In this document: piece by piece, positions 317 to 15,125 of the stretch
Position numbering within the stretch: position 1 is the stretch's first letter
Layout of the letters: every line of letters starts with the position of its first letter
Source of the DNA: a candidate division WOR-3 bacterium
Lineage (GTDB): Bacteria; SDB-A
Direction: 5' to 3'
DNA: 15,156 nt
NCBI GenBank assembly: GCA_016926475.1
Contig: JAFGON010000047.1
Span: 1 to 15,156, forward strand
The notes under the pieces: generated by a model
Database searches by the model: none
Seen by the model: the letters and a program-made list of their open reading frames with translations, nothing else
What the model was told of the DNA's origin: nothing
Program-made: the position numbers and the translations under genes

Positions 317-1435
317 ATGATTTTAGCGGCGATCCTTGTCTTTTTATCCTATCTAAATCCCGAACCACCTCAATCTGTAAAAGCTTACGACGTGCCGGAC
401 GACATTGGCGGAACAGTAATTGTAGAATGGACGAGAAGCCTTTCCGATTCTTCAGGAGGCGAAAACAACGTCTGGGGTTATAGGGTTTTCAGGATTCAAC
501 CGCAATCACTCGACACGCATTTTCTCGGTTTTTGCGACAGGTGGTCGGATCTGACTTTAAAGGATACTACAGCTGTCAACGGCACTGTATATGTTTACGG
601 AGTCCAGACGAAATCGGCTACCGGATTATCTGAAATGGCTTTTTCAAATCCCGTCAAATCTTCAAAGTCAATATTCCGGGTTGACAGAATTGCAGTCGCT
701 GTAGCTGTTTTGCTGGGGGTTGGAATTTTTCTCTTTTCAAAGGAAAAGACACTTGATTTTTTTAAAGGAAAAAGCGTTGACGGCAGTATATTATGGTCCG
801 TAGAAAAAGGGAAACCAGTCATGGTCATCATCAGCTATGAAGACACTTCTTCAAGGAAAGGAGTGATGAGAACCCTCACGGATTTAAAGAGAATCGCCGG
901 AAAAGTTCTTTGCGCGAAAGGCGAAATCAAAGTTCTCGCTCCGGGTTATCTTCAAGAAGCCGTTCAGGGCATTTTTATGGATATTTTAATGAAAGAGGGC
1001 AGGTTGGATGAATTCAACCCGCTTTGGATTAGAAGAACTTGGTCCGGCGGAGTGTCATATTCAGACGAAGCTTGCCGGCTTATAGAAATCTGGAAACCAG
1101 GTGTCGTTCTCGTCACAGGAGAACCAGGAATATGGACGTTTCAACCCTTGAAAACAGCGCTTCAGAAAGGCGCGGAAATAGCCGGTATCAGAGCAGGTAT
1201 AGACTATCTTCCGGCGGTCGTCTCCGCCGGAGTGGCTCTTGAGAAAATTTCCGGGCCTTTTTCGGAGGTGCTGGACCCAAGGCCTGTTGTGAAAAGGTAT
1301 TTACAGTTGACTGTTTTTGTAATCTTAATCGCTGTATTTCATATTCTTCTTTGTTTTGTCTTGATGGGGACGAATTGGCTTTATCCGACGCTTGGTTTAA
1401 GAGAAGCATTTAGGGGTTTTTTGTTATATCCATGA
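317..1435 (+). CDS. Membrane-anchored protein: FN3-like domain, TM, soluble domain, TM (possibly DUF6754-type)
   Basis: A 372-residue protein of unknown function. A short hydrophobic start (residues 1-14) looks like a signal peptide. Residues about 19-113 resemble a fibronectin type III fold: a VEWT strand, then GYRVFRI, then a YVYGVQTKS strand near the end. A clear membrane segment follows (about 123-141), then a soluble alpha/beta domain of about 185 residues (GKPVMVIISYED, IKVLAPGYLQEAVQ, KPGVVLVTGEP), and a second membrane segment at about 329-351. The soluble domain has the look of DUF6754, recalled from family pattern and not searched. If the N-terminus is exported, the FN3 part is extracytoplasmic and the soluble domain cytoplasmic. 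ATG 317 is the first start after the in-frame TAG at 260; its ribosome site (GGA at 308-310) is weak. The stop overlaps the next ATG by 4 nt, implying coupling. Confidence 0.8.
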   Translation: MILAAILVFLSYLNPEPPQSVKAYDVPDDIGGTVIVEWTRSLSDSSGGENNVWGYRVFRIQPQSLDTHFLGFCDRWSDLTLKDTTAVNGTVYVYGVQTKSATGLSEMAFSNPVKSSKSIFRVDRIAVAVAVLLGVGIFLFSKEKTLDFFKGKSVDGSILWSVEKGKPVMVIISYEDTSSRKGVMRTLTDLKRIAGKVLCAKGEIKVLAPGYLQEAVQGIFMDILMKEGRLDEFNPLWIRRTWSGGVSYSDEACRLIEIWKPGVVLVTGEPGIWTFQPLKTALQKGAEIAGIRAGIDYLPAVVSAGVALEKISGPFSEVLDPRPVVKRYLQLTVFVILIAVFHILLCFVLMGTNWLYPTLGLREAFRGFLLYP

Positions 1436-2067
1436 ATATCATCTCATCAATAGTTTCTGTCATCGTGCTGATCTTATTTTTCTCTGTAAAAGGTTCTTTT
1501 CCAGAGGCGCTTGAGAGAGAAATTCTATACGGATTCAGGGTTTTGTCGGGTTTTGTGCTGACAGCGGGAATAATCCGGGTAGTAGGAGTAAATTTCAAAA
1601 GACGCAGAGCAGGGTTTAAACAGGGTGTCTCAGGTATTTCTTTTCTCATGTCTGCGCTCGTCTTTTTTCTCCTTTTTGCGTTTGAAAACTTTTCAGGGCA
1701 ATCCTTTACGAGATTTATTTTCAAAGCAGCGGCGATGCCTCTATGGACGAGTTTCGCCTCTCTTTCCGGTCTCGCTTTTAGCACAGCTGTTCTGAAATCG
1801 GCTGACCTTAAAAAATGGGAATCAATCCTGACGTTGATGACCGCGTCTTATTTTCTTTTGACACTTTGTCTTCCTGTTGGAAACCTGCGCTTTGAATTTT
1901 ATCCCGGTAGGGGAATCTCTTTCGACAGGATTCTTTCTGAAATTTTCGAAATACTTTTTACGGGAGGAATAAGAGGGTTATTCATAGGGTTTTTCTGCCT
2001 TGTATTCGCACAGAGGATAAGGGTACTCATCGGCAGAGAAAAGAGGAAAGATGAATATACGCCCTGA
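1432..2067 (+). CDS. Polytopic membrane protein of unknown function
   Basis: A 211-residue protein, not recognised. About six hydrophobic stretches are visible (roughly residues 2-20, 35-53, 66-85, 103-122, 131-149, 172-194), with basic loops between them (KRRR near 56-59) and a charged C-terminal tail (GREKRKDEYTP). It begins in an ATGA overlap with the preceding gene, and its own end overlaps the next gene by 17 nt, so it belongs to a translationally coupled set with its neighbours. There are no catalytic motifs; a structural or channel-like membrane subunit is the most that can be inferred. Confidence 0.75.
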   Translation: MNIISSIVSVIVLILFFSVKGSFPEALEREILYGFRVLSGFVLTAGIIRVVGVNFKRRRAGFKQGVSGISFLMSALVFFLLFAFENFSGQSFTRFIFKAAAMPLWTSFASLSGLAFSTAVLKSADLKKWESILTLMTASYFLLTLCLPVGNLRFEFYPGRGISFDRILSEIFEILFTGGIRGLFIGFFCLVFAQRIRVLIGREKRKDEYTP

Positions 2068-2794
2068 AAAATCAGCTTTATTGTCTTTGTTCCTACTGTT
2101 GTCTTCCATGGTGGGATTTGCCGTCGGATGTCCTGCTTTCCGGTCTTTCAAACGGGAAAGACAAATTTACGCAGAAAACAGGGAAAGGGGGAAAGTTGTC
2201 GTTATACTCGATTTTCCTCCCGAAACGTGGGATGAAATGGCGCCGGTATGCTTTTACGTAATTGAAAAACTCCTTGAGAAAGAAAACGAAGTGGCTGTAA
2301 TGTCAACAGACTTGAGAACTTCCTACTGGTTTGAGTGTTTCAATGAGAATTTTTATTTTCAGGACAAATCGGGAGAAATCAACGACCGTGTGAGTTGGGC
2401 TGGATTTTTACCTGGGCTCCCTTCGAGCGCGGCAGAAATTTTCAGAGACCCGGAACTTGTCATCGGAAAACCTATTTTTAGAGGTCAAAAGATAAAATAC
2501 GCTATATTTTCGTCCGGAGAGAACTTTCACCTTTGGATGTTTTTCGGCTGGGCGAGAAACAGGCCGGACGCCGTCTATTATACGTCTTCTTCGTATTTTC
2601 CTATAGCTCAGGTATATATATCCTCCGGTCAGGCGCCGGAGACCTCGCAGTCGATATCCGGTTTGAGCGAGGGGGATTTTTACCGGAGAAGATCATCGGT
2701 GTCTTGGTTTTGTGTTTTGTTTGCCAGCTTGCTAGTATTCAAAATAGCGTTTTCGGGCTTCAGAAAATTCTTTTCGAGGGCGGAAAATGGTTGA
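2051..2794 (+). CDS. Membrane-anchored protein with TM-soluble-TM layout, unknown function
   Basis: A 247-residue protein, not recognised. An N-terminal hydrophobic segment (about 8-26, signal anchor) is followed by a soluble domain of about 185 residues and a second membrane segment (about 218-237) with a basic cytoplasmic-type tail. The soluble domain starts with a strand/helix/strand pattern (KVVVILDFPPETW near 48-60, then EVAVMSTD near 80-87), suggesting a Rossmann-like alpha/beta core. It carries distinctive stretches (LPGLPSSAAEIF near 120-131, IFSSGENFHLW near 152-162, YYTSSSYFPIAQVYISSGQ near 176-194) that look conserved in style but match no family I know. ATG 2051 is preceded by AGAGGAAAG. 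It overlaps the gene before by 17 nt and the gene after by 8 nt. The overall layout mirrors the first gene of the operon, so the two may be partners. Confidence 0.75.
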   Translation: MNIRPEKSALLSLFLLLSSMVGFAVGCPAFRSFKRERQIYAENRERGKVVVILDFPPETWDEMAPVCFYVIEKLLEKENEVAVMSTDLRTSYWFECFNENFYFQDKSGEINDRVSWAGFLPGLPSSAAEIFRDPELVIGKPIFRGQKIKYAIFSSGENFHLWMFFGWARNRPDAVYYTSSSYFPIAQVYISSGQAPETSQSISGLSEGDFYRRRSSVSWFCVLFASLLVFKIAFSGFRKFFSRAENG

Positions 2795-3383
2795 ATTCGC
2801 GATTGGGATTTTGCTGATTTTGGCGGTTTTCAGCTATTTTTGGCGTGAAGGATTTTTTTTCAGGTCCGCTGAATTATTAGCCCAGGCCCTGACCCTTTCT
2901 TTTTTGGGATGGGCTTCAATCAGATTCTTTTTCGCCCCTCAGTTGGAGATCGCATCTGAATTACCCCTGAGGTATATTTGGTTTGTCCTCGGAGGGGCTA
3001 TAGTAGTCGGGGAGGTGCCAAAATTCAAGAAAATTTCAAAATTTCCAATGAGCGTATTCCTGGGAATTCTGACGGCGCTTTTACTCGAAGGAATCATGCA
3101 AGGATTTTTCATACCTCAAGCAATGGCATTTTCACAATTCACGCCCAGTTCTGGCTTTATGTTACAAGCCCTCGCCCTGATGTTTTCTTCTCTTTCGGTT
3201 CTATTATTTTTCGTTATTCCGGACAAAAACCAGAACGCTTTTTTAAACGCTTTGAAAACAAGCGGCAAAGTAGTTTTGTTTTTTGTGCTTGGCGTCCTCC
3301 TTTCCGGGATGATTTTCACAGCGGCAACTTATCTGTCAGGCAGGGTAGCCTTTTTATTTTCCGTGGGGAGGGCTCCTTTTTGA
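2787..3383 (+). CDS. Polytopic membrane protein of unknown function
   Basis: A 198-residue, strongly hydrophobic protein, not recognised. Hydrophobic segments lie at about residues 2-18, 30-50, 62-76, 86-106, 124-144 and 160-180, so five or six helices are likely. It starts at an ATG inside the end of the preceding gene (8-nt overlap), and its stop codon overlaps the TTG start of the lipoyl-transferase gene by 4 nt. With the three upstream genes it forms a cassette alternating single/double-pass and multi-pass proteins, as expected for subunits of one membrane complex (inference). A run of eight T at 2853-2860 lies inside the gene but the reading frame is intact. Confidence 0.72.
   Translation: MVEFAIGILLILAVFSYFWREGFFFRSAELLAQALTLSFLGWASIRFFFAPQLEIASELPLRYIWFVLGGAIVVGEVPKFKKISKFPMSVFLGILTALLLEGIMQGFFIPQAMAFSQFTPSSGFMLQALALMFSSLSVLLFFVIPDKNQNAFLNALKTSGKVVLFFVLGVLLSGMIFTAATYLSGRVAFLFSVGRAPF
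3365..3372 (+). promoter_or_regulatory. Ribosome binding site that decides a TTG start
   Basis: GGGGAGGG at 3365-3372 sits 7 bases before TTG 3380. No ATG in this frame has a comparable site, so it fixes the start of the lipoyl-transferase gene. Confidence 0.6.
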
Positions 3384-4135
3384 AACTCGAACGGATAACC
3401 GATTCAGCGGATAAGATAGAAGTTCACATGGCTAGAGACGAGGCTCTTTTCGAAAGCGCTCAAAATGAGAGATCAGACAAAGCAATTGTTAGGTTTTACA
3501 CAACGCCCGAACCAAGCGTGACTGTTGGCAGAAACCAGAGACTCGGAGCTGAATTTACACTGAAATGCCTCGAGACGGGAGTCAAGGCGGTGAGAAGGCT
3601 GACTGGAGGTAGAGCCGTTCCTCACGCCAACGAGGTTACTTATTGTCTCGTGGCACCGGTGAAAGAAATGTTTTCAGGCAGGGTCACGGAAAGTTTTATG
3701 GTCGTTTCGGAGCGGCTTGTCCAGGGGTTGAGAGCTTCGGGGGTAGAAGCCCGAATTTCCCGGGTGAACGAAGGCGAAGAGAGCACCGTATCATGCTTTG
3801 ACGCGGTAGGAAGGCATGAAATCACATTCAGAAGCATAAAACTGCTGGGGAGCGCCCAGTACAGAAAAGCGGGTTACCTGCTTCAGCAGGGAACTCTGAT
3901 TTTCCGAAAATTGCCCTTCGAAATAGAATACATACTTGGTTCAAAAAACGTTTCTCTGGAAGAGCTTCAAGGCACCCTGCCCTCGTGGAACCAGGTCGCC
4001 CAAAACATGTTTTGCGCCCTCTCGTCGCTTTTTGATGGAACTTCTCTTACGAGAGATTTGACCACCCGTGAAAAACAGCTTGAGAAGGCTCTTTTAGACA
4101 AATACGGGGGGGTTGAAAAGGAGAAACAATTTTAG
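3380..4135 (+). CDS. Lipoate/octanoate transferase of the LipM-LplA (BPL/LPL) family
   Basis: A 251-residue enzyme that would attach octanoate or lipoate to the lipoyl-domain lysine of complexes such as the 2-oxoacid dehydrogenases or the glycine cleavage H protein, in the cytoplasm. Diagnostic motifs in order: MARDEALFE (17-25), SVTVGRNQ (46-53), RRLTGGRAVPHANEVTY (72-88), SCFD with Cys139, then IKLLGSAQ with Lys154 (153-160) and LLQQGTL (167-173). The Cys-Phe pair ahead of the K-x-x-GSAQ motif is typical of LipM-type octanoyltransferases, which use a cysteine; LplA ligases lack it. That favours LipM, but a ligase role is not excluded. The open frame extends upstream to 2978, but that part overlaps a better gene. 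TTG 3380 has the best ribosome site and a TTGA overlap with the previous stop; ATG 3428 would cut into the conserved N-terminus. Confidence 0.85.
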   Translation: MKLERITDSADKIEVHMARDEALFESAQNERSDKAIVRFYTTPEPSVTVGRNQRLGAEFTLKCLETGVKAVRRLTGGRAVPHANEVTYCLVAPVKEMFSGRVTESFMVVSERLVQGLRASGVEARISRVNEGEESTVSCFDAVGRHEITFRSIKLLGSAQYRKAGYLLQQGTLIFRKLPFEIEYILGSKNVSLEELQGTLPSWNQVAQNMFCALSSLFDGTSLTRDLTTREKQLEKALLDKYGGVEKEKQF

Positions 4136-4217: not shown

Positions 4218-5084
4218 ATGTCTATTCAATGCAATGTTGCTGATGCCAGTCCCAGTGAATTGCTATTTTTTCTCTCTCATTTCAAAAAAACTGGAACTCT
4301 GAAGCTTCAGGGAAAAAACAACAGAGGTGAAGTGTTTATAAAATCCGGCAGAATAGTACATGCCGTGAACAAAGATGCGGTAGGACTGGAAGCTCTTTAC
4401 AATTTGGCGATGATTCAGGAAGGCAAAATAGATTTTGTTCAGGACGAGATCCCGGCTTCCGAGACCATCGCGGAAGAATCGATGCAGGTGATTAGTGAAG
4501 CCGAAAGAAGAAGAGCAGAACTCGCTGATCTTATGAAAAGAGTTCCGCCTCTTGAGACCGTTTTATTGAGAGCCCCGAAGCTTTCTACGGAAGAAGATGT
4601 AATCCTCAGAAAAAGCGACTGGAAGGTTTTTGTAATGACGGACGGGAAAACCGCTCTCAGAAATATTATCGAAAATTCCAATATTGGCATTTTGGAAGTA
4701 TATTCGAGCATAACTTGGCTCCTTGAAAAGAGTTTTATCCTGGATCCCGCCGCGGCGATGAGAGAACTCGGTTCAAGCCTTTTGAAATTAAACGAGTTGG
4801 TCAAAGAATTCGGAGAAGGAGGAGTAGGAGTCCCCGCGTGGATTTCTTTTCTAAAAGAGCAGGTCAGAAAATACGATCCGGACGATTCAAAACTCGGACC
4901 TTTTTTAGTCTGGAACGCCGACAGCCTGCAGATAAAGCAGGAGAACATAACTCCGAAAAACGGAGCTGTTCTGAACGAATTCATTCAGAAATTGATTTCT
5001 ATTGTTCTCGAAAAAGCTGTAAACGACTACGGCAGGATCATAGCCAAGAGAAAATACGATCAAGTAGCCAAGAGGATTTCATAA
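4218..5084 (+). CDS. DUF4388 (PATAN)-like protein with a C-terminal helical domain
   Basis: A 288-residue soluble protein. Residues about 4-90 match the DUF4388/PATAN pattern seen in bacterial signalling proteins: SPSELLFFLSHFKKTGTLKL, then GEVFIKSGRIVHA, then GLEALYNLAMIQEGKIDF. Residues about 134-175 (DWKVFVMTDGKTALRNIIE and what follows) look like the winged-helix-like piece often found after PATAN. The C-terminal part (about 203-288) has a PAWISFLKEQVRKY helix, a short strand region and a long terminal helix with LISIVLEKA and AKRKYDQVAKR. Very similar blocks end the next two proteins. It has its own promoter and a strong ribosome site. No enzymatic motif is present; a protein-protein adaptor role is inferred from the family. 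Confidence 0.8.
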   Translation: MSIQCNVADASPSELLFFLSHFKKTGTLKLQGKNNRGEVFIKSGRIVHAVNKDAVGLEALYNLAMIQEGKIDFVQDEIPASETIAEESMQVISEAERRRAELADLMKRVPPLETVLLRAPKLSTEEDVILRKSDWKVFVMTDGKTALRNIIENSNIGILEVYSSITWLLEKSFILDPAAAMRELGSSLLKLNELVKEFGEGGVGVPAWISFLKEQVRKYDPDDSKLGPFLVWNADSLQIKQENITPKNGAVLNEFIQKLISIVLEKAVNDYGRIIAKRKYDQVAKRIS

Positions 5085-5087
5085 AAA

Positions 5088-5828
5088 ATGGCCGACGCGT
5101 CCAAACTTACGGAAAGCGCGAGAATTATCGGTGAAAATATTTTCAGGACCGGCGGAATTAAAACAGTTGAAATTCTCGGATCTCTCGATGGCGAACTTTT
5201 ATTCACACTTGGAGAGACTGATTCAAGCCTCTACGATATTTCGGCTTTCATCGGTTCCGTGAGTGTTCCTGTTTCAAAAACCATGAGGATAGAAGATTTA
5301 AAATACGCTGTAGTCGACTCCTCCGGAGGCAAAACGGTTTTGGTAACCGAAGAAGACTTCATTATTGGAATTCGATGCCAGGATGAAGCTGACCCGGATG
5401 AAATCGCAATAAACGCCGGGAAATATCTTAAACCTGAAAAATTATCAGATGTCCAAAAGACAATCACGCCAGCGGTGATGTCGAAGGAAGCGAGACTTGC
5501 CGCAGGCAAAATAAAACAGATAAATTTTCTTATAGAGGAGTTTTCTCAAGACAACGAAGTAAGACCCTGGCTCGATTTAGTGGAAAGAAAACTCGAAGAC
5601 TTCAGAGGACAAAAAGTGTTGGTAAATTTTTTGGAAATAAAAGAAGACAACCTTTTCTTGAATCCTGGAGCTGAAGCGATTGACGAAAAAGAGGTAAACG
5701 AAGTCTCCAAAAATTTAATTGATTCTCTTTGCAGGCTTGCTATTGAAAAGCTCGGACCGGATGCGGCTAAAAACAAAGTTCACAATGTCATCCAGAAGAT
5801 GGGATTTCTGGCTAAGAAAAAGGATTGA
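5088..5828 (+). CDS. Roadblock/LC7-like protein with the shared C-terminal helical domain
   Basis: A 246-residue soluble protein. Residues about 12-112 have a Roadblock/LC7-like pattern (helix, VEILGSLDGELLFTLG strand pair, helix through ISAFIGSVS, then LKYAVVDSSGGKTVLVTEED and FIIGIRC strands). Proteins of this fold dimerise and regulate or scaffold small Ras-like GTPases such as MglA. A linker follows, then the C-terminal block (about 140-240) with RPWLDLVERKLEDF, LIDSLCRLA and AKNKVHNVIQK, lining up with the ends of the two flanking proteins. The start is 3 bases after the previous stop, with AGAGGA at 5071-5076, a rather long 11 bases away. The Roadblock assignment is by pattern only; no signal peptide or membrane segment is seen. 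Confidence 0.72.
   Translation: MADASKLTESARIIGENIFRTGGIKTVEILGSLDGELLFTLGETDSSLYDISAFIGSVSVPVSKTMRIEDLKYAVVDSSGGKTVLVTEEDFIIGIRCQDEADPDEIAINAGKYLKPEKLSDVQKTITPAVMSKEARLAAGKIKQINFLIEEFSQDNEVRPWLDLVERKLEDFRGQKVLVNFLEIKEDNLFLNPGAEAIDEKEVNEVSKNLIDSLCRLAIEKLGPDAAKNKVHNVIQKMGFLAKKKD
5821..5824 (+). promoter_or_regulatory. Ribosome binding site favouring the GTG start at 5831
   Basis: AGGA at 5821-5824, within an A-rich stretch, sits 6 bases before GTG 5831 but directly touches the alternative TTG at 5825. The spacing therefore favours GTG, a start two codons downstream of the longest open frame. Confidence 0.5.
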
Positions 5829-5830
5829 CA

Positions 5831-6598
5831 GTGGAACCTCTTGAAATTCTGCGAGAAGCCACGACAGCATCGAAAGTTTTCTGTTGCGACAACTCATCCT
5901 GCAAAGAATCCGGTGAGTTGAACCTCGATCTCGACAAAAATGCTTTTTTGAGGGCTTGCGGATCAGTCAAGGGAGCAGCTGCGAGCATCGAGGGAGAAGA
6001 TATACAAAAAATAATATTCCACGGCGTGAACATCACCGTGGCTTTCATGAAACAAGAATCCGATACGATAGGTGTTGTTTGGCAGGAGCCGATCTCTTCT
6101 CTCATCCAGCTCGGAAGGCTCGATGGGGCGTTGAAAAAAATGCTCGAAACACCTCCACCCCAACCAGAAGAACAAAAACAGCCCGAGATTCAAGCACCTC
6201 CTACCGAAGAACCTGAAGAAAAAGAACCGGAAAAGTTCGAGAAAGAACCCATGCAACGGGAACCGGAAATCGAGGTCAAGGAGAAACCCTCTGAACCCAA
6301 AATAGAACAGCCTCCACCTCCTGTCGTCAAATTTATATATGCGGCGGAAGTGATGGACAGAATAGAAAACCTCCTTGAAAAATATCTCGAAGATTTCAGC
6401 ACTGTTATATTCGAAAATGAAATCTCGGATTTGGGGCTGAGTTTAAAGGGAGCCCAATCATTTACCAAAGAACAGATTGTAACTCTAATCGATAAATTGC
6501 ATGACGCAGCGTCTCTGATGATAGGAGGCTCGACTGCCAATGACATGAAAGAAGAAATTCTCAAAAATATAAAAGATACGGAAAGGGAGGCGCAATAA
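5831..6598 (+). CDS. Roadblock-like protein with Pro/Glu linker and the shared C-terminal domain
   Basis: A 255-residue soluble protein. The N-terminal part (about 5-105) follows the same strand/helix order as the preceding Roadblock-like protein; ACGSVKGAAASIEGEDIQKI and ITVAFMKQESDTIGVVW correspond to its second half. It has an unusual cluster of cysteines, Cys18, Cys19 and Cys24. Residues about 106-165 are a low-complexity Pro/Glu/Lys linker, clearly disordered. The C-terminal block (about 168-250) contains RIENLLEKYLEDF, LIDKLHDAA and MKEEILKNIK and resembles the ends of the two upstream proteins, though less closely. GTG 5831 is preferred over TTG 5825 on ribosome-site spacing. It lies 2 bases after the previous stop and its own stop abuts the next ATG, so the operon continues. 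Function unknown; an adaptor role is inferred. Confidence 0.72.
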   Translation: MEPLEILREATTASKVFCCDNSSCKESGELNLDLDKNAFLRACGSVKGAAASIEGEDIQKIIFHGVNITVAFMKQESDTIGVVWQEPISSLIQLGRLDGALKKMLETPPPQPEEQKQPEIQAPPTEEPEEKEPEKFEKEPMQREPEIEVKEKPSEPKIEQPPPPVVKFIYAAEVMDRIENLLEKYLEDFSTVIFENEISDLGLSLKGAQSFTKEQIVTLIDKLHDAASLMIGGSTANDMKEEILKNIKDTEREAQ

Positions 6599-6985
6599 AT
6601 GAATCTTGTTTCACTTTTGATAACGGCCCAGGGTCTTCCTCCGGATGTTCAAAATCTCTGGACCATAAAGACGTGGATACTGGTGGCGTCCGCTTTGTTT
6701 CTTTGGCTGGCTTTCGTCTTGCTGGGATTGGCGGCGAGAAATTACGAGAAAGTCTTGAGGCAGACCACTGAGTGGCAGTTTCTTGTCGCAGCTCCTTCAG
6801 GCATTCTGATCTACGCTGTAATACAGGCGATTTTGCTTGTAACAGCAGGTAAATACAGACTTGTAGGGCTGACAGGATATATAGGTTACGGTCTTTTCCT
6901 GGTGTCGGCGGTGATAACCCTTATCGGAACTCTCAGGTTTTACGAAGTAATAAAAGGTAAAAAAAGAAAAAAGCAGGGGAGGTGA
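6599..6985 (+). CDS. Small three-helix membrane protein
   Basis: A 128-residue protein, not recognised. Three hydrophobic segments lie at about residues 26-46, 62-83 and 92-115, and the tail is strongly basic (GKKRKKQGR), which should stay in the cytoplasm. ATG 6599 directly follows the previous TAA, with GGGAGG at 6585-6590 eight bases upstream. It sits between the Roadblock-like genes and a second three-helix protein, so it is a candidate membrane anchor for the soluble proteins encoded upstream. No catalytic motif is visible. Confidence 0.75.
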   Translation: MNLVSLLITAQGLPPDVQNLWTIKTWILVASALFLWLAFVLLGLAARNYEKVLRQTTEWQFLVAAPSGILIYAVIQAILLVTAGKYRLVGLTGYIGYGLFLVSAVITLIGTLRFYEVIKGKKRKKQGR

Positions 6986-6991
6986 CGAACC

Positions 6992-7327
6992 GTGGTTAAA
7001 ACAATTCTGGCTGAACAATTTTTCATACTGGGAGAAATACTTCTCGTAGCCGCCCTTGTAATATACGGATTAATTCTCAAAAGGCTGCTGAAGTTGTTGA
7101 AAAAAAACCCTGTTTTTTGGATCCTTTTGATTGTTTCCGCGTTGTTCGTGCTCGTATCCCTCGTTTTCCATTCTTTCGGTGTCTACGAAAAAGGTTCGGT
7201 CGAGGATCCCGTTGAATTGATGAGATCACTGGGATTTATGGGGATTTTTGAAGCCCTGGCGGTTGTATTGGGAAGTATATTCGCCTTTTTTTCGGCTTTG
7301 ATGTACAACAGATGGTCTCACAGGTGA
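6992..7327 (+). CDS. Small three-helix membrane protein (GTG start)
   Basis: A 111-residue protein, not recognised. Hydrophobic segments lie at about residues 9-29, 41-63 and 85-105, with a basic loop after the first (KRLLKLLKK). GTG 6992 has an excellent ribosome site (GGGGAGGTGA, 6976-6984, overlapping the previous stop) at 7 bases, so the GTG is well supported. Its size and helix number match the preceding protein, and the two may form a heteromeric membrane unit. It is the last gene of the operon; the next promoter follows at 7393. Confidence 0.72.
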   Translation: MVKTILAEQFFILGEILLVAALVIYGLILKRLLKLLKKNPVFWILLIVSALFVLVSLVFHSFGVYEKGSVEDPVELMRSLGFMGIFEALAVVLGSIFAFFSALMYNRWSHR

Positions 7328-7480: not shown

Positions 7481-10186
7481 ATGCTCAGGTGGGCTAAAAA
7501 TGTAGTTTTGATTGTAAGCTTGTTCCTCATCGCTTCTCTGCTCGTGGCGGGCACGACAGGAAAAATTCGCGGAAGGGTTGTCGACGAAAGAGGCAATCCC
7601 GTTCCATACGCGCAGGTCATGGTGCTGAACACGAGCTTTGGAGGGTTGACAAACGCTCAGGGTGAATTCGACATAATAGGTATTCCACCGGGAACCTATA
7701 TTGTCCAAGCCGCGATGATAGGATTCACCCCGGCTCAAAAGACTTCGGTCGTTGTCAACGTCGACAGGACAACGGACGTTGGCGCGATGGTACTTCGTTC
7801 TGAAGCCCTTGAAATCGGAATCGAAGTGACGACTTACGGGACGAGGATGATAGCGGCTGACGTGACCGCGACGGAGATAAGCGTCAACCAGGAAGACATG
7901 CAGGCTTTGGGACTTGAAAACTTCGCCGAAGCTTTGACCCGTTCGACTGCCGCAACCGAGCAGGGCGGGCAAATACACATGCGCGGAGGCAGAGGCGGAG
8001 AAATTTTGTACATGGTCGACGGAATGTCGGTAAAAGATCCCCTCGTAGGCGGCAGTTACGCCATTGATATAGCTACCAACGCAGTACAGCAGATGAATAT
8101 AATGGCCGGCGGGTTCAACGCCGAATACGGTCAGGCTCAATCCGGAGTCGTAAACGTAGTTACGAGAGAAGGAAGCAGGACAAACTACTCCGGAAGGATT
8201 TCCTACTCGACAGATAAATTCGCGGGTTCAAACAGGGATTACAGCTTCAACACAGACAGATACGATTTGTCTTTCGGAGGGCCCGAACCTATATCAAGAG
8301 CTCTTTTGGGAAGAGGGCAGGAAGGGTCTGAAGCCGGATACCTGACGTTTTTCGTCTCGACTTCGGGATATTTCTCAAACACAGGAATTCCATACCCGGA
8401 ACTGCAGTCAGACTATAATTTTCTTAAAAATAGGTTCGACCCCGACACTACCAACTACAGGGGCTGGGTAAGCCCCGGAGATTTTCTCCTGCAGTCCGAC
8501 CTCAGCGAGACCACACAGCTTTTCTCCCTTAGGCAGAGCAATAAATTCACGTCGAACGCAAAACTCGCTTACCTTTTGACGAGCACGAAAAAACTTGTTC
8601 TTTCTTTCAACAAGACTTGGCAGTGGAGATTGCCTTACCAGCATTGTTTTAAATACAACGCTCATCACGCTTTGGCTTATCAGGATATAGCGTATCAATG
8701 GACGCTTGGCTGGAACCACACCATTTCTGCGAAAGCGTTTTATAACATTAAAGTAGGTTTTTTCCACAACCAGGACGCGAGAGACCATGGACACAATCCT
8801 GATTACTTCTATCCCGGTACTTTCCCTGAAGATTATTTCCCTTACCAGGCGAATTACCTCGGTATAAGGTTTCTGAACCAAAACGAATGGGACCAGTGGG
8901 CAAGATGGCAGAGAAGGGACCTCAAGAGGTGGACCGTCCTCGGGGATTTCTCTTGGCAGGTCAACAGGGAAAACCTGCTTAAAATCGGCGGAAGCATAGA
9001 ATATTATAAAATTCAACAGGGAGAAATTTCCTATACTTGGCAGTACTATACAGGCGCCATACAGCCCAAGCCCTGGGAACCTTATCCAGACCAGGGTGTT
9101 TTCAGAGACTGCTGGAAGGCTTCGCCAATTGGAGCGGCGTTTTACATACAGGATAAACTTGAAACGGAAGGTATGATAATCAACCTCGGCCTTAGAGCTG
9201 ATATGTGGATGCCAGGAAAAGACTTTGAAGAATATCCAGATCCGCTTTCCGGGGATACTCTCGAGGCGACAAACAAGTTTGACATAAGCCCGAGGCTCGG
9301 TATCGCCTTCCCAATAACGGACAAGGACAAACTTTATTTTTCTTACGGCAGATTCATTCAGCTTCCAGAGCTTCAGTACCTATACGGAGCAAACCAGCAG
9401 GGTACATCAGCTTTAAAAAATTACACGAATCCAAACCTTGACGCGGAAAAGACAGTTCAATACGAAATCGGTCTCGACCACGCTTTCTCCAACACCACCA
9501 AAATGTCCATAAGGGCTTTCTTCAAAGATATTCGCGGTCTCATAGGCCTTATGACAGGCGGAACGCCTCCTTTCGACGGGCAGATTTTCACGAACCTCGA
9601 CTACGGAAACGTCAGGGGTTTTGACTTCGCTTTCGACAAAACTGTCAAAAACTACTGGGGGTTTAGCGTCAACTATACTCTTCAGTGGGCTGACGGCAAG
9701 GGTTCGGACGCTTATGACAACTACCTTATTTCAGACCCCGCGGAAATTCCTTTGAAGACATACCCCTTGGATTGGGATGAAAGGCATTCGGTTAAAGGCA
9801 ACATTATTCTCGCCGCTGACGAAGGGGAGAAGATGTTCGGATTTGTCCCAGACAAGTGGTCGTTTTCCGTGGAATGCCTATACGGGAGCGGTTTCCCATA
9901 CTCCCCGAGCACAGACAACCCGGATTACGACATTCTCAAGGGCGAAAACTACATGAGGATGCCGTACCATATTCAGTGGAACATGACTTTTATAAAGAAC
10001 TTCAAATTCGGACCTATGGGATACGGCTTCAGGGTTCAGGTTGACAATATCTTCAACAAGAAAGACGTCATAGACGTCGACGATGACACAGGGACTTGGA
10101 ACGGAAACGGGACGGAAGTCCAGTCCGATCCTCTGAACCTAACAGACCCAAGACAAATAATGATAGGATTTTTCGCTGAATTTTAA
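7481..10186 (+). CDS. TonB-dependent outer-membrane receptor with carboxypeptidase-regulatory-like domain
   Basis: A 901-residue outer-membrane transporter or receptor. It has a signal peptide (basic MLRWAK, hydrophobic core to about residue 23), then a carboxypeptidase-regulatory-like beta domain (about 27-105: GKIRGRVVDERGNPVPYAQV, GEFDIIGIPPGTYIV). The plug domain follows (about 125-230), with HMRGGRGGEILYMVDGMSV and the typical end GFNAEYGQAQSGVVNVVTRE. The rest is a beta-barrel rich in aromatic strands, with late barrel motifs such as FDISPRLGIAFPI and YEIGLDHAF, and it ends in phenylalanine as outer-membrane barrels do. This N-terminal arrangement is common in SusC-like and other FCB-group receptors, but no SusD partner is seen. 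The downstream exbB-exbD-exbD-tonB genes are probably its energy source. The substrate cannot be deduced. GGAGGT at 7471-7476 supports ATG 7481. Confidence 0.93.
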   Translation: MLRWAKNVVLIVSLFLIASLLVAGTTGKIRGRVVDERGNPVPYAQVMVLNTSFGGLTNAQGEFDIIGIPPGTYIVQAAMIGFTPAQKTSVVVNVDRTTDVGAMVLRSEALEIGIEVTTYGTRMIAADVTATEISVNQEDMQALGLENFAEALTRSTAATEQGGQIHMRGGRGGEILYMVDGMSVKDPLVGGSYAIDIATNAVQQMNIMAGGFNAEYGQAQSGVVNVVTREGSRTNYSGRISYSTDKFAGSNRDYSFNTDRYDLSFGGPEPISRALLGRGQEGSEAGYLTFFVSTSGYFSNTGIPYPELQSDYNFLKNRFDPDTTNYRGWVSPGDFLLQSDLSETTQLFSLRQSNKFTSNAKLAYLLTSTKKLVLSFNKTWQWRLPYQHCFKYNAHHALAYQDIAYQWTLGWNHTISAKAFYNIKVGFFHNQDARDHGHNPDYFYPGTFPEDYFPYQANYLGIRFLNQNEWDQWARWQRRDLKRWTVLGDFSWQVNRENLLKIGGSIEYYKIQQGEISYTWQYYTGAIQPKPWEPYPDQGVFRDCWKASPIGAAFYIQDKLETEGMIINLGLRADMWMPGKDFEEYPDPLSGDTLEATNKFDISPRLGIAFPITDKDKLYFSYGRFIQLPELQYLYGANQQGTSALKNYTNPNLDAEKTVQYEIGLDHAFSNTTKMSIRAFFKDIRGLIGLMTGGTPPFDGQIFTNLDYGNVRGFDFAFDKTVKNYWGFSVNYTLQWADGKGSDAYDNYLISDPAEIPLKTYPLDWDERHSVKGNIILAADEGEKMFGFVPDKWSFSVECLYGSGFPYSPSTDNPDYDILKGENYMRMPYHIQWNMTFIKNFKFGPMGYGFRVQVDNIFNKKDVIDVDDDTGTWNGNGTEVQSDPLNLTDPRQIMIGFFAEF

Positions 10187-10195
10187 CTTTTTATT

Positions 10196-10216
10196 GGGGG
10201 AGATTGTATCTCCCCC
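10196..10216 (+). promoter_or_regulatory. Perfect 8-bp intercistronic stem-loop
   Basis: GGGGGAGA (10196-10203) pairs perfectly with TCTCCCCC (10209-10216) across a 5-base loop. It starts 9 bases after the receptor stop codon. No T run follows on either strand, so it is not a classical terminator. It may be a partial terminator or an mRNA 3'-end protector that lets the receptor transcript accumulate above the exbB-tonB transcript (inference). Confidence 0.55.
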
Positions 10217-10251
10217 GTGTAACTTAAAGGGTTCATTTTTAATTGAAAGAT

Positions 10252-10257
10252 AAGGAG
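10252..10257 (+). promoter_or_regulatory. Ribosome binding site deciding the exbB start
   Basis: AAGGAG at 10252-10257 is 8 bases before ATG 10266. It overlaps the alternative in-frame GTG at 10257, which therefore cannot be the start. Confidence 0.65.
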
Positions 10258-10265
10258 TGAGTCAG

Positions 10266-10901
10266 ATGGGAGTGATTCAGTTTTACAGAGAAGGCGGATG
10301 GGCGATGCATCTTCTCCTCGTTTCCGCCCTTATTGGACTTTTTTTCATGTTCGAAAGGATTATTTTTCTTTTTTTCAAAACCAGACCGGACCCGATTGAT
10401 TATGTCGAAAAACTCACCAAAGACATCAAATCCAAAAAGGGTAAAGATGGAGTGGACTCGGCTCTGAAGAAATCGAGATCTGATTCATTTCCCATAGCTA
10501 AAATTTCATCAGCCATACTTGAAAAGGCGAGCTACGGAAAAGACGAGATGGAGGAGGCGAGGGACATGGAAGCCCTAAAAACCCTTTCTTTTCTCGACAG
10601 GGGAATGCTCGTTTTAGCGGCTGTCGCGAACATAGCTCCTCTAATCGGATTCTTGGGCACTGTCGTAGGGATGATGATGGCTTTTGAGGCTATAGCAAAA
10701 GCTGGAACAGTCGAGCCGACTATTGTCGCTGACGGAATAAGGGTCGCTCTGATAACAACCGCGGCTGGACTCATGATAGCTTTTCCTGTAAGCGCGTTTC
10801 ATGTATGGTTCAGCTCAAGAATAAATTCTTTGAGCCGCAAATTCGAAGAGGCGACATCAATACTTGTCGAGACTGTGTTAGAGCAAGAAATAGAGGAATG
10901 A
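10266..10901 (+). CDS. exbB: ExbB / MotA-TolQ-ExbB proton channel protein
   Basis: A 211-residue inner-membrane protein that, with ExbD, converts the proton gradient into motion transmitted by TonB. It has the family's three-helix layout: TM1 at about 13-36 (MHLLLVSALIGLFFMFERI), a cytoplasmic loop of about 75 residues, TM2 at about 114-140 with IAPLIGFLGTVVGMMMAF, and TM3 at about 158-182 with GIRVALITTAAGLMIAFPV, including the conserved Thr pair. Length is normal. ATG 10266 is chosen over the upstream GTG on ribosome-site position. It is followed after 1 base by an exbD. Family members also serve TolQ and MotA roles; the neighbouring exbD, tonB and TonB-dependent receptor make ExbB the right call. 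Confidence 0.93.
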   Translation: MGVIQFYREGGWAMHLLLVSALIGLFFMFERIIFLFFKTRPDPIDYVEKLTKDIKSKKGKDGVDSALKKSRSDSFPIAKISSAILEKASYGKDEMEEARDMEALKTLSFLDRGMLVLAAVANIAPLIGFLGTVVGMMMAFEAIAKAGTVEPTIVADGIRVALITTAAGLMIAFPVSAFHVWFSSRINSLSRKFEEATSILVETVLEQEIEE

Positions 10902-10902
10902 C

Positions 10903-11403
10903 ATGGCTTTTAGGAAGAAAGTATCGCGAGAAGCTGAAATACCGACTTCTTCCATGTCAGACATCGCGTTCTTGCTCTTGGTCTTCTTTCTCGTCACAAC
11001 GCATTTCCAGCGCGACACCGGCATTGTGACCAAACTTCCTCCGAGTGGAGAGACCCAGGAAGCGCAGGAAAACATCGTTCTCAGCATCGTAGTGCCTGAA
11101 GACACTCTTGTAGCCGGGGACAGCGTAAAAGTCGGAGGCGTCAAAGTGCCGTTTTCGGACCTTCAAAGTGCAGTCTACGACTCGGTCTCAACCGCCATCG
11201 AATCGAGAAAGATGAAAGCTCCTCTGATTTTTGTCGAAAAAGGAGTGACATACGAGAGAATGCTCGAAGTCTACGAAGAAGTTATGAAAGCCGCCGACAA
11301 ACTCGATTTGGAACACCCAGAACTTCCGGAAGCCGATTGGTTCAACAAACAAACGGTCGCGGCGCTTATTAGCGTTCAACTCAGGCCGATAACAGGCTGG
11401 TAG
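10903..11403 (+). CDS. exbD: ExbD-family biopolymer transport protein (first copy)
   Basis: A 166-residue protein with a short cytoplasmic tail, one membrane helix (about 20-34) and a periplasmic domain. The signature PTSSMSDIAFLLLVFFLVTT holds the essential membrane aspartate at Asp20, the proton-carrying residue of the family. The periplasmic part contains VKVGGVKVPFSDL and a LIFVEKGVTYERMLEVYEEV stretch, matching the usual ExbD fold. Its C-terminus is longer than in classic ExbD (about 140 aa), with an acidic insert near LDLEHPELPEADW. It starts 1 base after the exbB stop with GAGGA at 10893-10897, so it is coupled to exbB. Confidence 0.92.
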   Translation: MAFRKKVSREAEIPTSSMSDIAFLLLVFFLVTTHFQRDTGIVTKLPPSGETQEAQENIVLSIVVPEDTLVAGDSVKVGGVKVPFSDLQSAVYDSVSTAIESRKMKAPLIFVEKGVTYERMLEVYEEVMKAADKLDLEHPELPEADWFNKQTVAALISVQLRPITGW

Positions 11404-11411
11404 GCGGTTTT

Positions 11412-11897
11412 ATGAGAGTGGAAAAAGAAAAAAAAGTTGAAGCGAGGATACCGACAGCTTCGATGTCGGACATCGCTTTTTTGCTTATTATATTTTTTAT
11501 GGTTACAACAGTTTTCAGACAGGAAAGAGGTCTCGACATCACCCTTCCTGGGTCGAACCTCGCAGTGAAACTGGAACAGAGAAGGATACACCACATATAT
11601 CTGGGCTGGTCTTCGAGAAACCCAAACGAGAGGGTTCCCATAGTATCCATAAACGACCAGATTTTCCCGATGGATCAGGTTGACGGGGTTCTCAGGCAGA
11701 AGCTCGAAGAATACAGGGCGAGCACGACCGGTACCGACGAAGAGTGGAAGCAGTTCGTCTTCAGCTTGCAGATTGAAAGGGACATGCCATATGTATTTGT
11801 GGATTCTCTTCTTCAGGAGGCGAGGCAGGGCGGAAGGAACGTAGTTCAGGCCATTCAGATAAACTATGGGGCGAGAGAAGCTCAAAAAGGGGGATGA
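11412..11897 (+). CDS. exbD: ExbD-family biopolymer transport protein (second copy)
   Basis: A 161-residue paralogue of the preceding gene product. The N-terminal signature is nearly identical (PTASMSDIAFLLIIFFMVTT, with Asp20 conserved), but the periplasmic domain has diverged strongly. It carries an insert around LEQRRIHHIYLGWSSRNPNE and another around YRASTTGTDEEWKQF, ending in a variant of the usual core (ERDMPYVFVDSLLQEARQGG). Two ExbD proteins per system are common in FCB-group bacteria and may form a heterodimer under the single ExbB pentamer (inference). It lies 8 bases after the first exbD with only a weak ribosome site (GGCGG, 11403-11407). The stop is 1 base before the tonB ATG. 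Confidence 0.9.
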   Translation: MRVEKEKKVEARIPTASMSDIAFLLIIFFMVTTVFRQERGLDITLPGSNLAVKLEQRRIHHIYLGWSSRNPNERVPIVSINDQIFPMDQVDGVLRQKLEEYRASTTGTDEEWKQFVFSLQIERDMPYVFVDSLLQEARQGGRNVVQAIQINYGAREAQKGG

Positions 11898-11898
11898 C

Positions 11899-12546
11899 AT
11901 GGATCGAAAACGCATGGACACATCTGTCCCTATAAGGACAGGGGTAATTCTCGCTCTGGTGTTTCATCTCCTCGCGCTCGTAGCGATTCCGGAACCCAAT
12001 ATACCGGAATACAAGCCTGCCGAGAGGAAGGAATCGGAAAACATCCAGCAGGAAGTAAATCTGCAAGTCGATTTTCAGACCATTGAAGAAATTCAGCAGC
12101 AGATACAACAGCCCCAGGATATCATGCAGGAAATACAGCAGAGCGGCGAAATAATTTTGTCGACAGAAGGCGATACGCTGATTGGGGGCGCCGCGTCGGA
12201 CGTTTTTGAAGTTGATACCACGGAACTTCTTCCAGACGATCAGGGGGAAGTATCTTCAGAATACGTCAGCGTTTACGAAACACCTCCGAGACCTGTTCAT
12301 ATTCAGGAACCTGCATACCCATCCGCTGCGCTAAACCAGAATTTGGAAGGAACTGTCGTCCTTTTGCTCTATGTCGATATAGACGGAAAAGTTACGAGAG
12401 CCGACGTGATAAACTCGACTAATCCCCTTTTCAACGACGCGGCCGTTGACGCCGGGCTCAGATGCACTTTCAAACCAGCAGAAAGCGCCGGCAGACCCAT
12501 AAGAGTAAAATTAGTTTTTCCAGTTAATTTTAAGTTGACTAATTAA
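11899..12546 (+). CDS. tonB: TonB-like energy transducer
   Basis: A 215-residue protein anchored in the inner membrane that reaches across the periplasm to the receptor plug. A cytoplasmic basic start is followed by one membrane helix (about 13-30) carrying His23, the place where TonB has its conserved histidine; the usual serine four residues earlier is Ala19. The spacer (about 45-130) is not Pro-Lys/Pro-Glu rich as in classic TonB but Gln/Glu/Ile rich (EEIQQQIQQPQDIMQEIQQ). The C-terminal domain (about 137-213) is typical: EPAYPSAALNQNLEGTVVLL, VDIDGKVTRADVINS, DAAVDAGLRCTFKPA and a final FPVNFKL strand. ATG 11899 is favoured over the in-frame ATG at 11866 because it follows the exbD stop by 1 base and has AAGGGGG upstream. 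Confidence 0.92.
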   Translation: MDRKRMDTSVPIRTGVILALVFHLLALVAIPEPNIPEYKPAERKESENIQQEVNLQVDFQTIEEIQQQIQQPQDIMQEIQQSGEIILSTEGDTLIGGAASDVFEVDTTELLPDDQGEVSSEYVSVYETPPRPVHIQEPAYPSAALNQNLEGTVVLLLYVDIDGKVTRADVINSTNPLFNDAAVDAGLRCTFKPAESAGRPIRVKLVFPVNFKLTN

Positions 12547-12557
12547 AGGAGGTGGAT

Positions 12558-15125
12558 GTGAAGAGACCTGTTTTGATATTTTTTTCTCTTCTGCTCGTAC
12601 TGACGACTTCATCCGTTTACGGAAAGATGAGGGATGAATACAATGCTATGGCAAATCCCTATACCCAATTCAGAGGGATGGAACAAAGCAACATTTGGCT
12701 TTGTTTTACAAACTACGGGTTTTTCGGAAATGGCGGTGAATACGGTATAGTAGGATACTCTTGTATGTTTCCCGCTTATTCAAACCAGGAATATTTATTT
12801 CAGGGAGCTCTCTGGATAGCTGCCGTCACAGGCAGAGATACCCTCTGCAGCGTAGGTGTAGACGGGTGGGCTCATGAAGGCGAGATGTATCCTGGAACGA
12901 CAGCGGATGATTCTATACACCAGCGTTCGACGATTCCAACGTCACCTGTGTATGATTCATTGGCGGTTTCGGAGCTCGATTTTGTGTCAGTTTACTACGA
13001 CACTTATACCGACCCTTCAATTCCAAGCATGGGTCCATGGCACAAACCTTTGGGTCTTCAAGTTACAATGGAATCCTTTTCTTGGTCTTATGAATACGCC
13101 GAGGATTTCATAATAATAAATTTTTGGATTAAAAACATAGGTAGGAAAAACCTTAAGCAGTGTTACTTGGGACTATATGTTGACGCCGATGTCGGTCCTG
13201 TCGGAGCGGCATACGACGACAAAGCTCAGGACGACGTCTGCGGTTTCATACCTTCAATTCCCGTTCAATACGGTGGTAATCCTGAAAATCCAAAAGACAG
13301 CATAAACGTCGCGTGGATAGCCAATGCCGGTCTTTTGGGATTTCCACAGGCTGGTACAGCACAGGGAGTTCCCACGCCAGACGTAACAGGGACCAGAGTT
13401 TTAAGAACACCTCATCCAAACCTTACAACCTCCTTCAACTGGTGGTACAGCAATCAAAACGATCAAATTCTCGACTGGGGTCCTTGCTACCCAGACAACA
13501 CTTTCGATATCATAATGAAACTCGTCAATTCGCAGCTTGCGCCTGGTGATCCTCAGCCTGGAACACCGAGCTACGACGACCCTCGGGCCGACATTCTTAA
13601 ATGGCTTTATCTCGGCAACGGATCTTTCGACCCGGACCAGTTGGACATCAAATACGAAAACCGTGACACGCTTTTCAATGACACGAGATACCTTCTGTCT
13701 TTCGGACCGATATACCCCGCTTTGAGAAATGGAGTCCCCGTTACAGACTCGATGTTCCTGCCCGGAGACAGCGTTCCTGTGACATTCGCGTATATCGGAG
13801 GAGAAGATTTCCAGAAATACTCAAACGCTCCTCTTTGGAGCCAGCACCCTAACGCCACTGACACAATTGTACCAAGAGAGCTGTCATGGTCACCTATAAG
13901 GTATGATTTCACTGATCTTGGTGTAAACGCGAGATGGGCGCTCGATGTCTATGACAACCCAAATGTGATAACAGAAACAAAAAACGGTCCTCATGTCGTA
14001 ACTCACGACAGATGGCCTTCGATTATTTCTGGAGACACGATTTTCTGCGACACACTCGACCCGTTTTTCCATTGGCCTTACCCGCTTATCGTCGCGGGTG
14101 ACACTATTGACTGGTCGGGAGACGGAATACCCGATTACGCAGGACCTCCTCCTCCGGCTTTCACGGAGATGTTGGTTGTTCCGGGAGTCCCCAGGCCGAA
14201 CGATGTCGCAATCTTGTGGGGAAGAAGAAACAAAACTCCCACAGACACAACTCAGGATTCGCTCTGGAACGTGCTGCCGGACGAGCAGGTTGGTAAAGAT
14301 ATATTCGCTCCTAACTATGAAGATTTCCAGGGATACAGGGTTTACCGCAGTTATCCAAATAACGAGAGAGAAATTGCCGGCTGGACTCTGCTAAAACAGT
14401 GGGACAGAGGTTACAGGTGGATTCACGCAATACCCACAGATCCAAATTCCGACACCCTGAGAGTTCCGACAGACCCGGCGTTTGCCTACGGATTCTGGCT
14501 TGATAGAGATTCATTGAGAGCTCCCGATGCTGACCTTGCGGACACAGTCCTTCAACTTAAATACCAACTCGCCCACGATCCCTCCTTCTCTCCTTTAAGG
14601 CAATACGAAAATACATACAGATATATATACGTCGATTCCGGCGTCACAATTCTCAGTCCAGTCTATTACACTGTTACATGTTTTGATTTCGGGAACCCTC
14701 AGACAGGAGTCGCTCCTCTTGAGACCTCAAAAGGAAGCAACACTCAGAGAGTTATCCCAGGACCTGCTCCTCAACCTCTGAACGATGAAAAACCAGTGAT
14801 GGTGATTCCCAATCCTTACAGGGGGGATATAGACTACTCGTCGGCGACGACAGGTCATCCCTGGGAAGATCCTTCGAGAAGAGGATGGACAGAGCATTCG
14901 AGAAGGATTTCTTTCATAAATCTTCCGGAAAAATGTACAATAAGGATATACACACTCAGCGGCGAACTTGTTAAAACTCTCGTTCACGAGGATATGTTTT
15001 CAAGCGTCCATGACTGGGATTTGATATCTTCAGACATACAGCTCATCGCAAGCGGTATATATCTTTTCTCGGTTGAGGATGAATCCGGAAAAACTCAAGT
15101 CGGCAAATTTGTCGTTCTGAAGTAG
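12558..15125 (+). CDS. Large exported protein with FN3-like region and C-terminal sorting tail
   Basis: An 855-residue exported protein, specific function unknown. It has a signal peptide (MKRPVLIFFSLLLVLTTSS, cleavage near Gly-Lys at about 22-24). The first 500 residues or so are a beta-rich, aromatic, Asp/Pro/Gly-rich domain with YLFQGALWIAAVTGRDTLCS and a later IIINFWIKNIG stretch. I know this style from large secreted proteins of FCB-related candidate phyla but cannot name it. A region from about 530 to 740 contains an FN3-like pattern (DVAILWGRR, FQGYRVYRS, VYYTVTCFDFG). The last 110 residues form a FlgD-like/type A sorting domain (VIPNPYRG, FINLPEKCTIRIYTLSGE, SGIYLFSVED, GKFVVLK), which directs type IX-type secretion in Bacteroidota. 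GTG 12558 has AAAGGAGG just upstream; the in-frame GTG at 12552 overlaps that site. It lies 11 bases after tonB, in the same operon. Confidence 0.82.
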   Translation: MKRPVLIFFSLLLVLTTSSVYGKMRDEYNAMANPYTQFRGMEQSNIWLCFTNYGFFGNGGEYGIVGYSCMFPAYSNQEYLFQGALWIAAVTGRDTLCSVGVDGWAHEGEMYPGTTADDSIHQRSTIPTSPVYDSLAVSELDFVSVYYDTYTDPSIPSMGPWHKPLGLQVTMESFSWSYEYAEDFIIINFWIKNIGRKNLKQCYLGLYVDADVGPVGAAYDDKAQDDVCGFIPSIPVQYGGNPENPKDSINVAWIANAGLLGFPQAGTAQGVPTPDVTGTRVLRTPHPNLTTSFNWWYSNQNDQILDWGPCYPDNTFDIIMKLVNSQLAPGDPQPGTPSYDDPRADILKWLYLGNGSFDPDQLDIKYENRDTLFNDTRYLLSFGPIYPALRNGVPVTDSMFLPGDSVPVTFAYIGGEDFQKYSNAPLWSQHPNATDTIVPRELSWSPIRYDFTDLGVNARWALDVYDNPNVITETKNGPHVVTHDRWPSIISGDTIFCDTLDPFFHWPYPLIVAGDTIDWSGDGIPDYAGPPPPAFTEMLVVPGVPRPNDVAILWGRRNKTPTDTTQDSLWNVLPDEQVGKDIFAPNYEDFQGYRVYRSYPNNEREIAGWTLLKQWDRGYRWIHAIPTDPNSDTLRVPTDPAFAYGFWLDRDSLRAPDADLADTVLQLKYQLAHDPSFSPLRQYENTYRYIYVDSGVTILSPVYYTVTCFDFGNPQTGVAPLETSKGSNTQRVIPGPAPQPLNDEKPVMVIPNPYRGDIDYSSATTGHPWEDPSRRGWTEHSRRISFINLPEKCTIRIYTLSGELVKTLVHEDMFSSVHDWDLISSDIQLIASGIYLFSVEDESGKTQVGKFVVLK

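Follow-up and report, generated by a model that had tools for sequence, protein, structure and literature searches.

Profile comparisons of orthologues from two phyla establish that the C-terminal regions of about 110 residues in two adjacent proteins, the PATAN (DUF4388) protein p1 and the Roadblock/LC7 protein p2, are one domain. The tail of the next protein, p3, resembles them only at chance level, and is treated here as a separate conserved helical domain or as one that has diverged beyond recognition.

Genomic context and domain architecture

The window, i.e. the whole analysed stretch of 15,156 nucleotides, covers the first 15 kb of its contig; the genome (G000) has 2.1 Mb. The genomic sample included four genomes from the phylum of the window and ten from a second phylum, among them G132. 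The genes p1, p2 and p3 are part of a same-strand gene run that begins with four genes (g1-g4) and a lipoate-ligase-like gene and ends with m1 and m2. The features are as follows.

317..1435, + strand: g1, DUF6754-type membrane protein (homologue of a PF20539 protein)
1432..2067, + strand: g2, DUF6754 cassette member, hydrophobic and predicted to be a membrane protein
2051..2794, + strand: g3, DUF6754 cassette protein, matched to its counterparts in the other phylum only by position
2787..3383, + strand: g4, DUF6754 cassette member, hydrophobic and predicted to span the membrane several times
3410..4135, + strand: lipoate-protein-ligase-like protein, start approximate (PF21948, E 1.9e-22)
4218..5084, + strand: p1, PATAN (DUF4388) protein, 288 aa, with PATAN domain, middle segment and shared tail (PF14332, orthologues)
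4749..5081, + strand: p1 tail, residues 178-288, common to p2 (hhalign, BLASTP, genome searches)
5088..5828, + strand: p2, Roadblock/LC7 protein, 246 aa, with shared tail (Robl_LC7 in orthologues)
5475..5804, + strand: p2 tail, residues 130-239 (hhalign, BLASTP, AF2)
5831..6598, + strand: p3, 255 aa, Roadblock-like N-terminus, Pro/Glu-rich linker (residues ~107-165) and separate helical tail (hhalign, AF2)
6332..6577, + strand: p3 tail, residues ~168-249, with IGxxxA turn, own conserved domain (profile searches)
6599..6985, + strand: m1, 128 aa, hydrophobic, predicted membrane protein 3' of the trio (kept in 14 of 14 genomes)
6992..7327, + strand: m2, 111 aa, hydrophobic, predicted membrane protein 3' of m1 (kept in 14 of 14 genomes)

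The genes from p1 to m2 nearly abut, with successive spacings of 3, 2, 0 and 6 bases. The open frames of the trio are present as described previously; the start codon of p3 is GTG in the window and ATG in the orthologues. A separate group of genes at 7481-15125 contains a TonB-dependent-receptor-like, a MotA/TolQ-like, two ExbD-like and a TonB-like gene as well as one for a large protein whose C-terminus resembles a secretion signal, all named from reading of the sequence.

The PATAN assignment of p1 is borne out by the match of residues 6-101 to PF14332 (56.1 bits against a cut-off of 25, E 4.7e-15). The middle segment of p1 may be winged-helix-like. In p2, the window sequence is below detection with PF03259; its Roadblock assignment holds through the orthologues, the N-termini of which match this family in four of seven cases (best E 9.5e-6). 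One full-length orthologue (L035) scores 18.4 bits against the cut-off of 23, and p2 orthology between the phyla is detected by BLAST (E about 2e-10). The N-terminus of p3, also described as Roadblock-like, has no Pfam match, and aligns end to end with the Roadblock profile in hhalign (E 3e-4, score 26.5, shuffle maximum 16.1). Support for this assignment is moderate, since the second-phylum p3 sequences by themselves do not match the Roadblock profile.

The tail shared by p1 and p2

The relationship between the two tails becomes visible with sequence depth. Direct BLASTP comparison of p1 and p2 from the window gave E 0.68, and profiles built from the four same-phylum orthologues were too shallow, with E 0.027 for the p1 and p2 tails and E 0.02-0.06 for the comparisons overall. 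When 290 genomes were searched with the p1 tail, two adjacent genes emerged in G132, from the other phylum. These are the orthologues of p1 and p2, in a locus with the order lipoate-ligase-like gene, p1, p2, p3, m1, m2. Within this second phylum a single p1 sequence suffices to retrieve the p2 tail from each of the ten genomes (E 7e-14 to 1e-11, residues 169-283). With 14 orthologues of each protein from the two phyla, the tail profiles of p1 and p2 align over 106 columns in hhalign (probability 99.5, E 7.9e-23, score 124.2); the highest score among 100 column shuffles was 17.1, and the reversed comparison scored 13.3.

The shared tail has about 108 residues (178-288 in p1, 130-238 in p2). It is longer than the 80-90 residues initially assigned to it, because the first helix (LNELVKEF / INFLIEEF) belongs to the tail. 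The proposed residue register is recovered in both MAFFT and hhalign alignments, which pair WISFLKEQVRKY with WLDLVERKLEDF, LISIVLEKA with LIDSLCRLA, and AKRKYDQV with AKNKVHNV. AF2 models were obtained for p2 and p3 as monomers from shallow alignments, that for the p2 tail including the p1 tails. The modelled p2 tail consists of two helices, a beta-hairpin and two further helices (pLDDT about 70-90), and its structure matches are all weak (Z at most 6.8).

The tail of p3

The preliminary description proposed one C-terminal domain on all three neighbours, with p3 as the most divergent copy. The profile-profile comparison that it suggested upholds this proposal for p1 and p2 and fails to extend it to p3, the tail of which matches those of p1 and p2 with E 0.02-0.11. 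The third copy was examined with shuffles, reversal, half-swap and circular shifts. Column shuffles reached the observed score in 10 of 100 cases for p1-p3, 1 of 100 for p2-p3 and 2 of 150 for the joint comparison, and circular shifts of the p3 tail score as well as the native sequence. As this resemblance is at chance level, the presence of three copies is not established, and we treat the p3 tail as a domain different from the p1/p2 tail.

Tails of the p3 type were found in the p3 protein of G243 (43 bits) and in G132, where a further Roadblock protein bears one (44 bits). A protein of G319 (L118, 7100-8065) has what read as two PATAN-like domains followed by a weak match to the p3-type tail (15 bits, E 0.005).

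The AF2 model of the p3 tail is all helical (pLDDT about 56-83). Its best fold match is the STAC protein Af1502 (5A1Q; Z 7.9, rmsd 2.7, 69 of 69 residues). STAC consists of two alpha-hairpins with the motif LGPx(x)A, and Af1502 was likewise missed by sequence search (PMC4834066). Like it, the modelled p3 tail is a small bundle of helices, and it carries an I/L-G-(P)-x-x-A turn (IGPSAA/IGGSTA). In contrast to STAC domains, it is found on neither SLC5 transporters nor histidine kinases, and it has no sequence-profile support: against a STAC profile of ten plasmid-encoded transporter-linked kinases it gave E 0.02-0.07, within the circular-shift null. A common helical arrangement would be enough to explain a model-based match at this Z score. 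A STAC origin of the tails is not supported by sequence, with no significant match to this ten-sequence profile.

Distribution and origin of the shared tail

The p1/p2 tail belongs to no named family in Pfam or NCBIfam, as had been supposed: the best Pfam match has E 0.059 and occurs in one of 12 members, and NCBIfam gave no match. Searches of PDB sequences with profiles of the p1/p2 and p3 tails were also without significant matches. In searches of 386 and 385 genomes, largely overlapping sets, the p1/p2 tail was confined to the p1-p2-p3 gene set of three lineages, with two tails per genome in both phyla and one in the third lineage, represented by G243. One match elsewhere (E 0.008) was set aside as stop-riddled, and matches of the p1-tail and p3-tail profiles in G223 were dropped as partial or unrelated. 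In G000 and G132 the tail is absent from the remaining PATAN proteins. We therefore consider it a dedicated part of this module and not a general accessory of PATAN or Roadblock proteins.

The third lineage is a single locus, since the phylum of G243 has two genomes in the sample. Its gene order is a PATAN-tail gene, a short Roadblock-like gene without the tail and a p3-like gene; the PATAN-tail protein scores 17.9 bits when compared with a profile from which it was left out. Neither a DUF6754 cassette nor m1/m2 is found near this trio. Thus neither the membrane link nor paired tails are obligatory.

The order p1-p2-p3-m1-m2 is conserved in all 14 genomes of the two phyla. The lipoate-ligase-like gene lies upstream of the trio in 13 of them, and in the remaining one the contig stops shortly past p1. 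Given the synteny and full-length orthology in both phyla, p1 and p2 would already have had their tails in a common source of these loci. The tail tree neither supports nor rejects this scenario and does not date the duplication. The tail was probably duplicated before the separation of the two phyla; the locus may also have been transferred between them.

DUF6754 cassettes and GTPases

In the window, G001 and G132 alike, the trio is preceded by a four-gene DUF6754 cassette, and these cassettes are collinear. A direct comparison of g1 with PF20539 gave no match; its assignment relies on a G132 protein that is similar to g1 (BLASTP E 3e-10) and itself matches PF20539 with E 4.5e-117. The N-terminal region of g1 is fibronectin type III-like (weak Pfam match). 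Cross-phylum homology of g2 and g4 is weak, and for g3 no homology to the other-phylum copies was detected. Together with the two genes that follow it (L114, 2680-7401), a further cassette of G132 is embedded in a V-ATPase operon, with subunit C on one side and subunits F and A on the other; g4 matches its counterpart there with E 3e-4. This cassette is followed by a Roadblock gene and then by a Roadblock gene with a p3-type tail. The two paralogous loci thus show repeated pairing of Roadblock genes with the DUF6754 cassette. In G001 (L077, 2-4508) the cluster that resembles the window has, directly upstream, another DUF6754 cassette and one additional DUF6754 gene; in the window the corresponding region would be beyond the contig end. 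No functional description of the DUF6754 family was found.

No gene for a small Ras-like GTPase is present in the window. A PF00071 search detected only long-frame GTPases in G000 and recovered the 197-aa MglA of G132. Across the six module-carrying genomes, an MglA-sized GTPase was detected in G132 only, and so the module does not seem to require one. The G132 gene belongs to a separate mglB-mglA pair (L088, C3, minus strand, 2580-1486).

Possible function and alternative explanations

Whether p1, p2 and p3 form a PATAN/Roadblock assembly that involves no MglA GTPase, is held by tails of its own and docks on a membrane complex of the DUF6754 type is in our estimate an evenly balanced question, and this is the reading that we prefer. 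For the three proteins, a physical assembly, a membrane site and a signalling role are inferred. According to this model, the PATAN protein p1 and the Roadblock protein p2 would have acquired one dedicated four-helix C-terminal domain. Roadblock domains dimerise, and p2 and p3 could pair through theirs, while the shared tails would join p1 to p2 or bind both to one surface. The PATAN protein and the two Roadblock proteins would then form one cytosolic complex on the membrane proteins g1-g4, m1 and m2. This complex might serve the membrane assembly as its adaptor or sensor head, with no MglA-type GTPase. A docking role of the tail in subunit assembly is plausible because the tail is restricted to the p1-p2-p3 gene set. 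We only tentatively suggest a more specific version, in which the cassette anchors a complex that needs no Ras-like GTPase and bears a Roadblock dimer and a PATAN sensor kept together by their tails, and the paralogous complex is coupled to a V-type ATPase.

The tails could instead bind the same third partner, e.g. the cytosolic face of g1-g4 or m1/m2, so that p1 and p2 would be alternative clients of one site. The constant association of p1, p2 and m1/m2 in two phyla agrees with such a common partner, as does G243, where m1/m2 and a nearby cassette are missing, the p1 tail is highly diverged and the p2 tail is absent. The same genome also provides the counterargument, for its p1 retains the tail with no cassette nearby, and we regard this explanation as possible but doubtful. 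A different alternative concerns the origin of the tails: all three, including that of p3, could be copies of a single ancient helical domain with two hairpins, perhaps a STAC domain. The p1-p3 and p2-p3 alignments do have a sensible and identical register across the last two helices, a G-(P)-x-x-A turn occurs in p2, p3 and the second-phylum p1 orthologues, and both the fold match to Af1502 and the two-hairpin architecture of STAC point in this direction. However, the comparisons of p1/p2 with p3, and of either with the STAC profile, are within circular-shift nulls; the modelled beta-hairpin of the p2 tail has no counterpart in the p3 tail; 5A1Q is absent among the matches listed for the p2 model; and Z scores below 13 for helical bundles may reflect only a common arrangement. 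Altogether, a single ancestral domain in all three proteins seems unlikely to us.

It is still less probable that the tails are regulatory or nucleic-acid-binding ends involved in transcription control. This possibility is raised by the basic AKxK segment next to the possibly winged-helix-like middle of the PATAN protein, by the invariance or near-invariance of its two lysines in the p1/p2 tail alignments, and by the occurrence of PATAN proteins in response regulators (PMC4316618). The genes nevertheless adjoin membrane-protein genes and a V-ATPase operon, the tail also terminates a Roadblock protein, and no DNA-binding fold stands out among the matches of the p2 model.

Relation to known systems

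The location of a PATAN gene beside MglB-family Roadblock genes was noted by Makarova et al. 2006, as cited in Wuichet & Sogaard-Andersen 2014 (PMC4316618), and the locus described here is alike in encoding a PATAN protein beside Roadblock proteins. It differs from such neighbourhoods in having two Roadblock-type proteins and no adjacent small GTPase, and in the C-terminal domain common to the PATAN protein and one Roadblock protein, which is absent from Pfam and NCBIfam. With the MglA-MglB polarity modules it shares the Roadblock fold in p2 and probably in p3, and one genome with the trio, G132, has a separate mglBA pair as well. Unlike these modules, the cluster contains no GTPase and its proteins have extra C-terminal tails. 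With regard to DUF6754, g1 is homologous to PF20539 proteins, though it is itself below detection.

Few partners of PATAN and orphan Roadblock proteins are known in bacteria, and the shared tail names a testable pair. The conserved gene set extends beyond the region covered by the preliminary description to include membrane-linked neighbours. The repeated link to DUF6754, once within a V-ATPase operon, suggests that the target is at the membrane, and this uncharacterised family gains its first candidate cytosolic partner. The conserved trio together with the membrane cassette suggests a little-known membrane-linked protein assembly.
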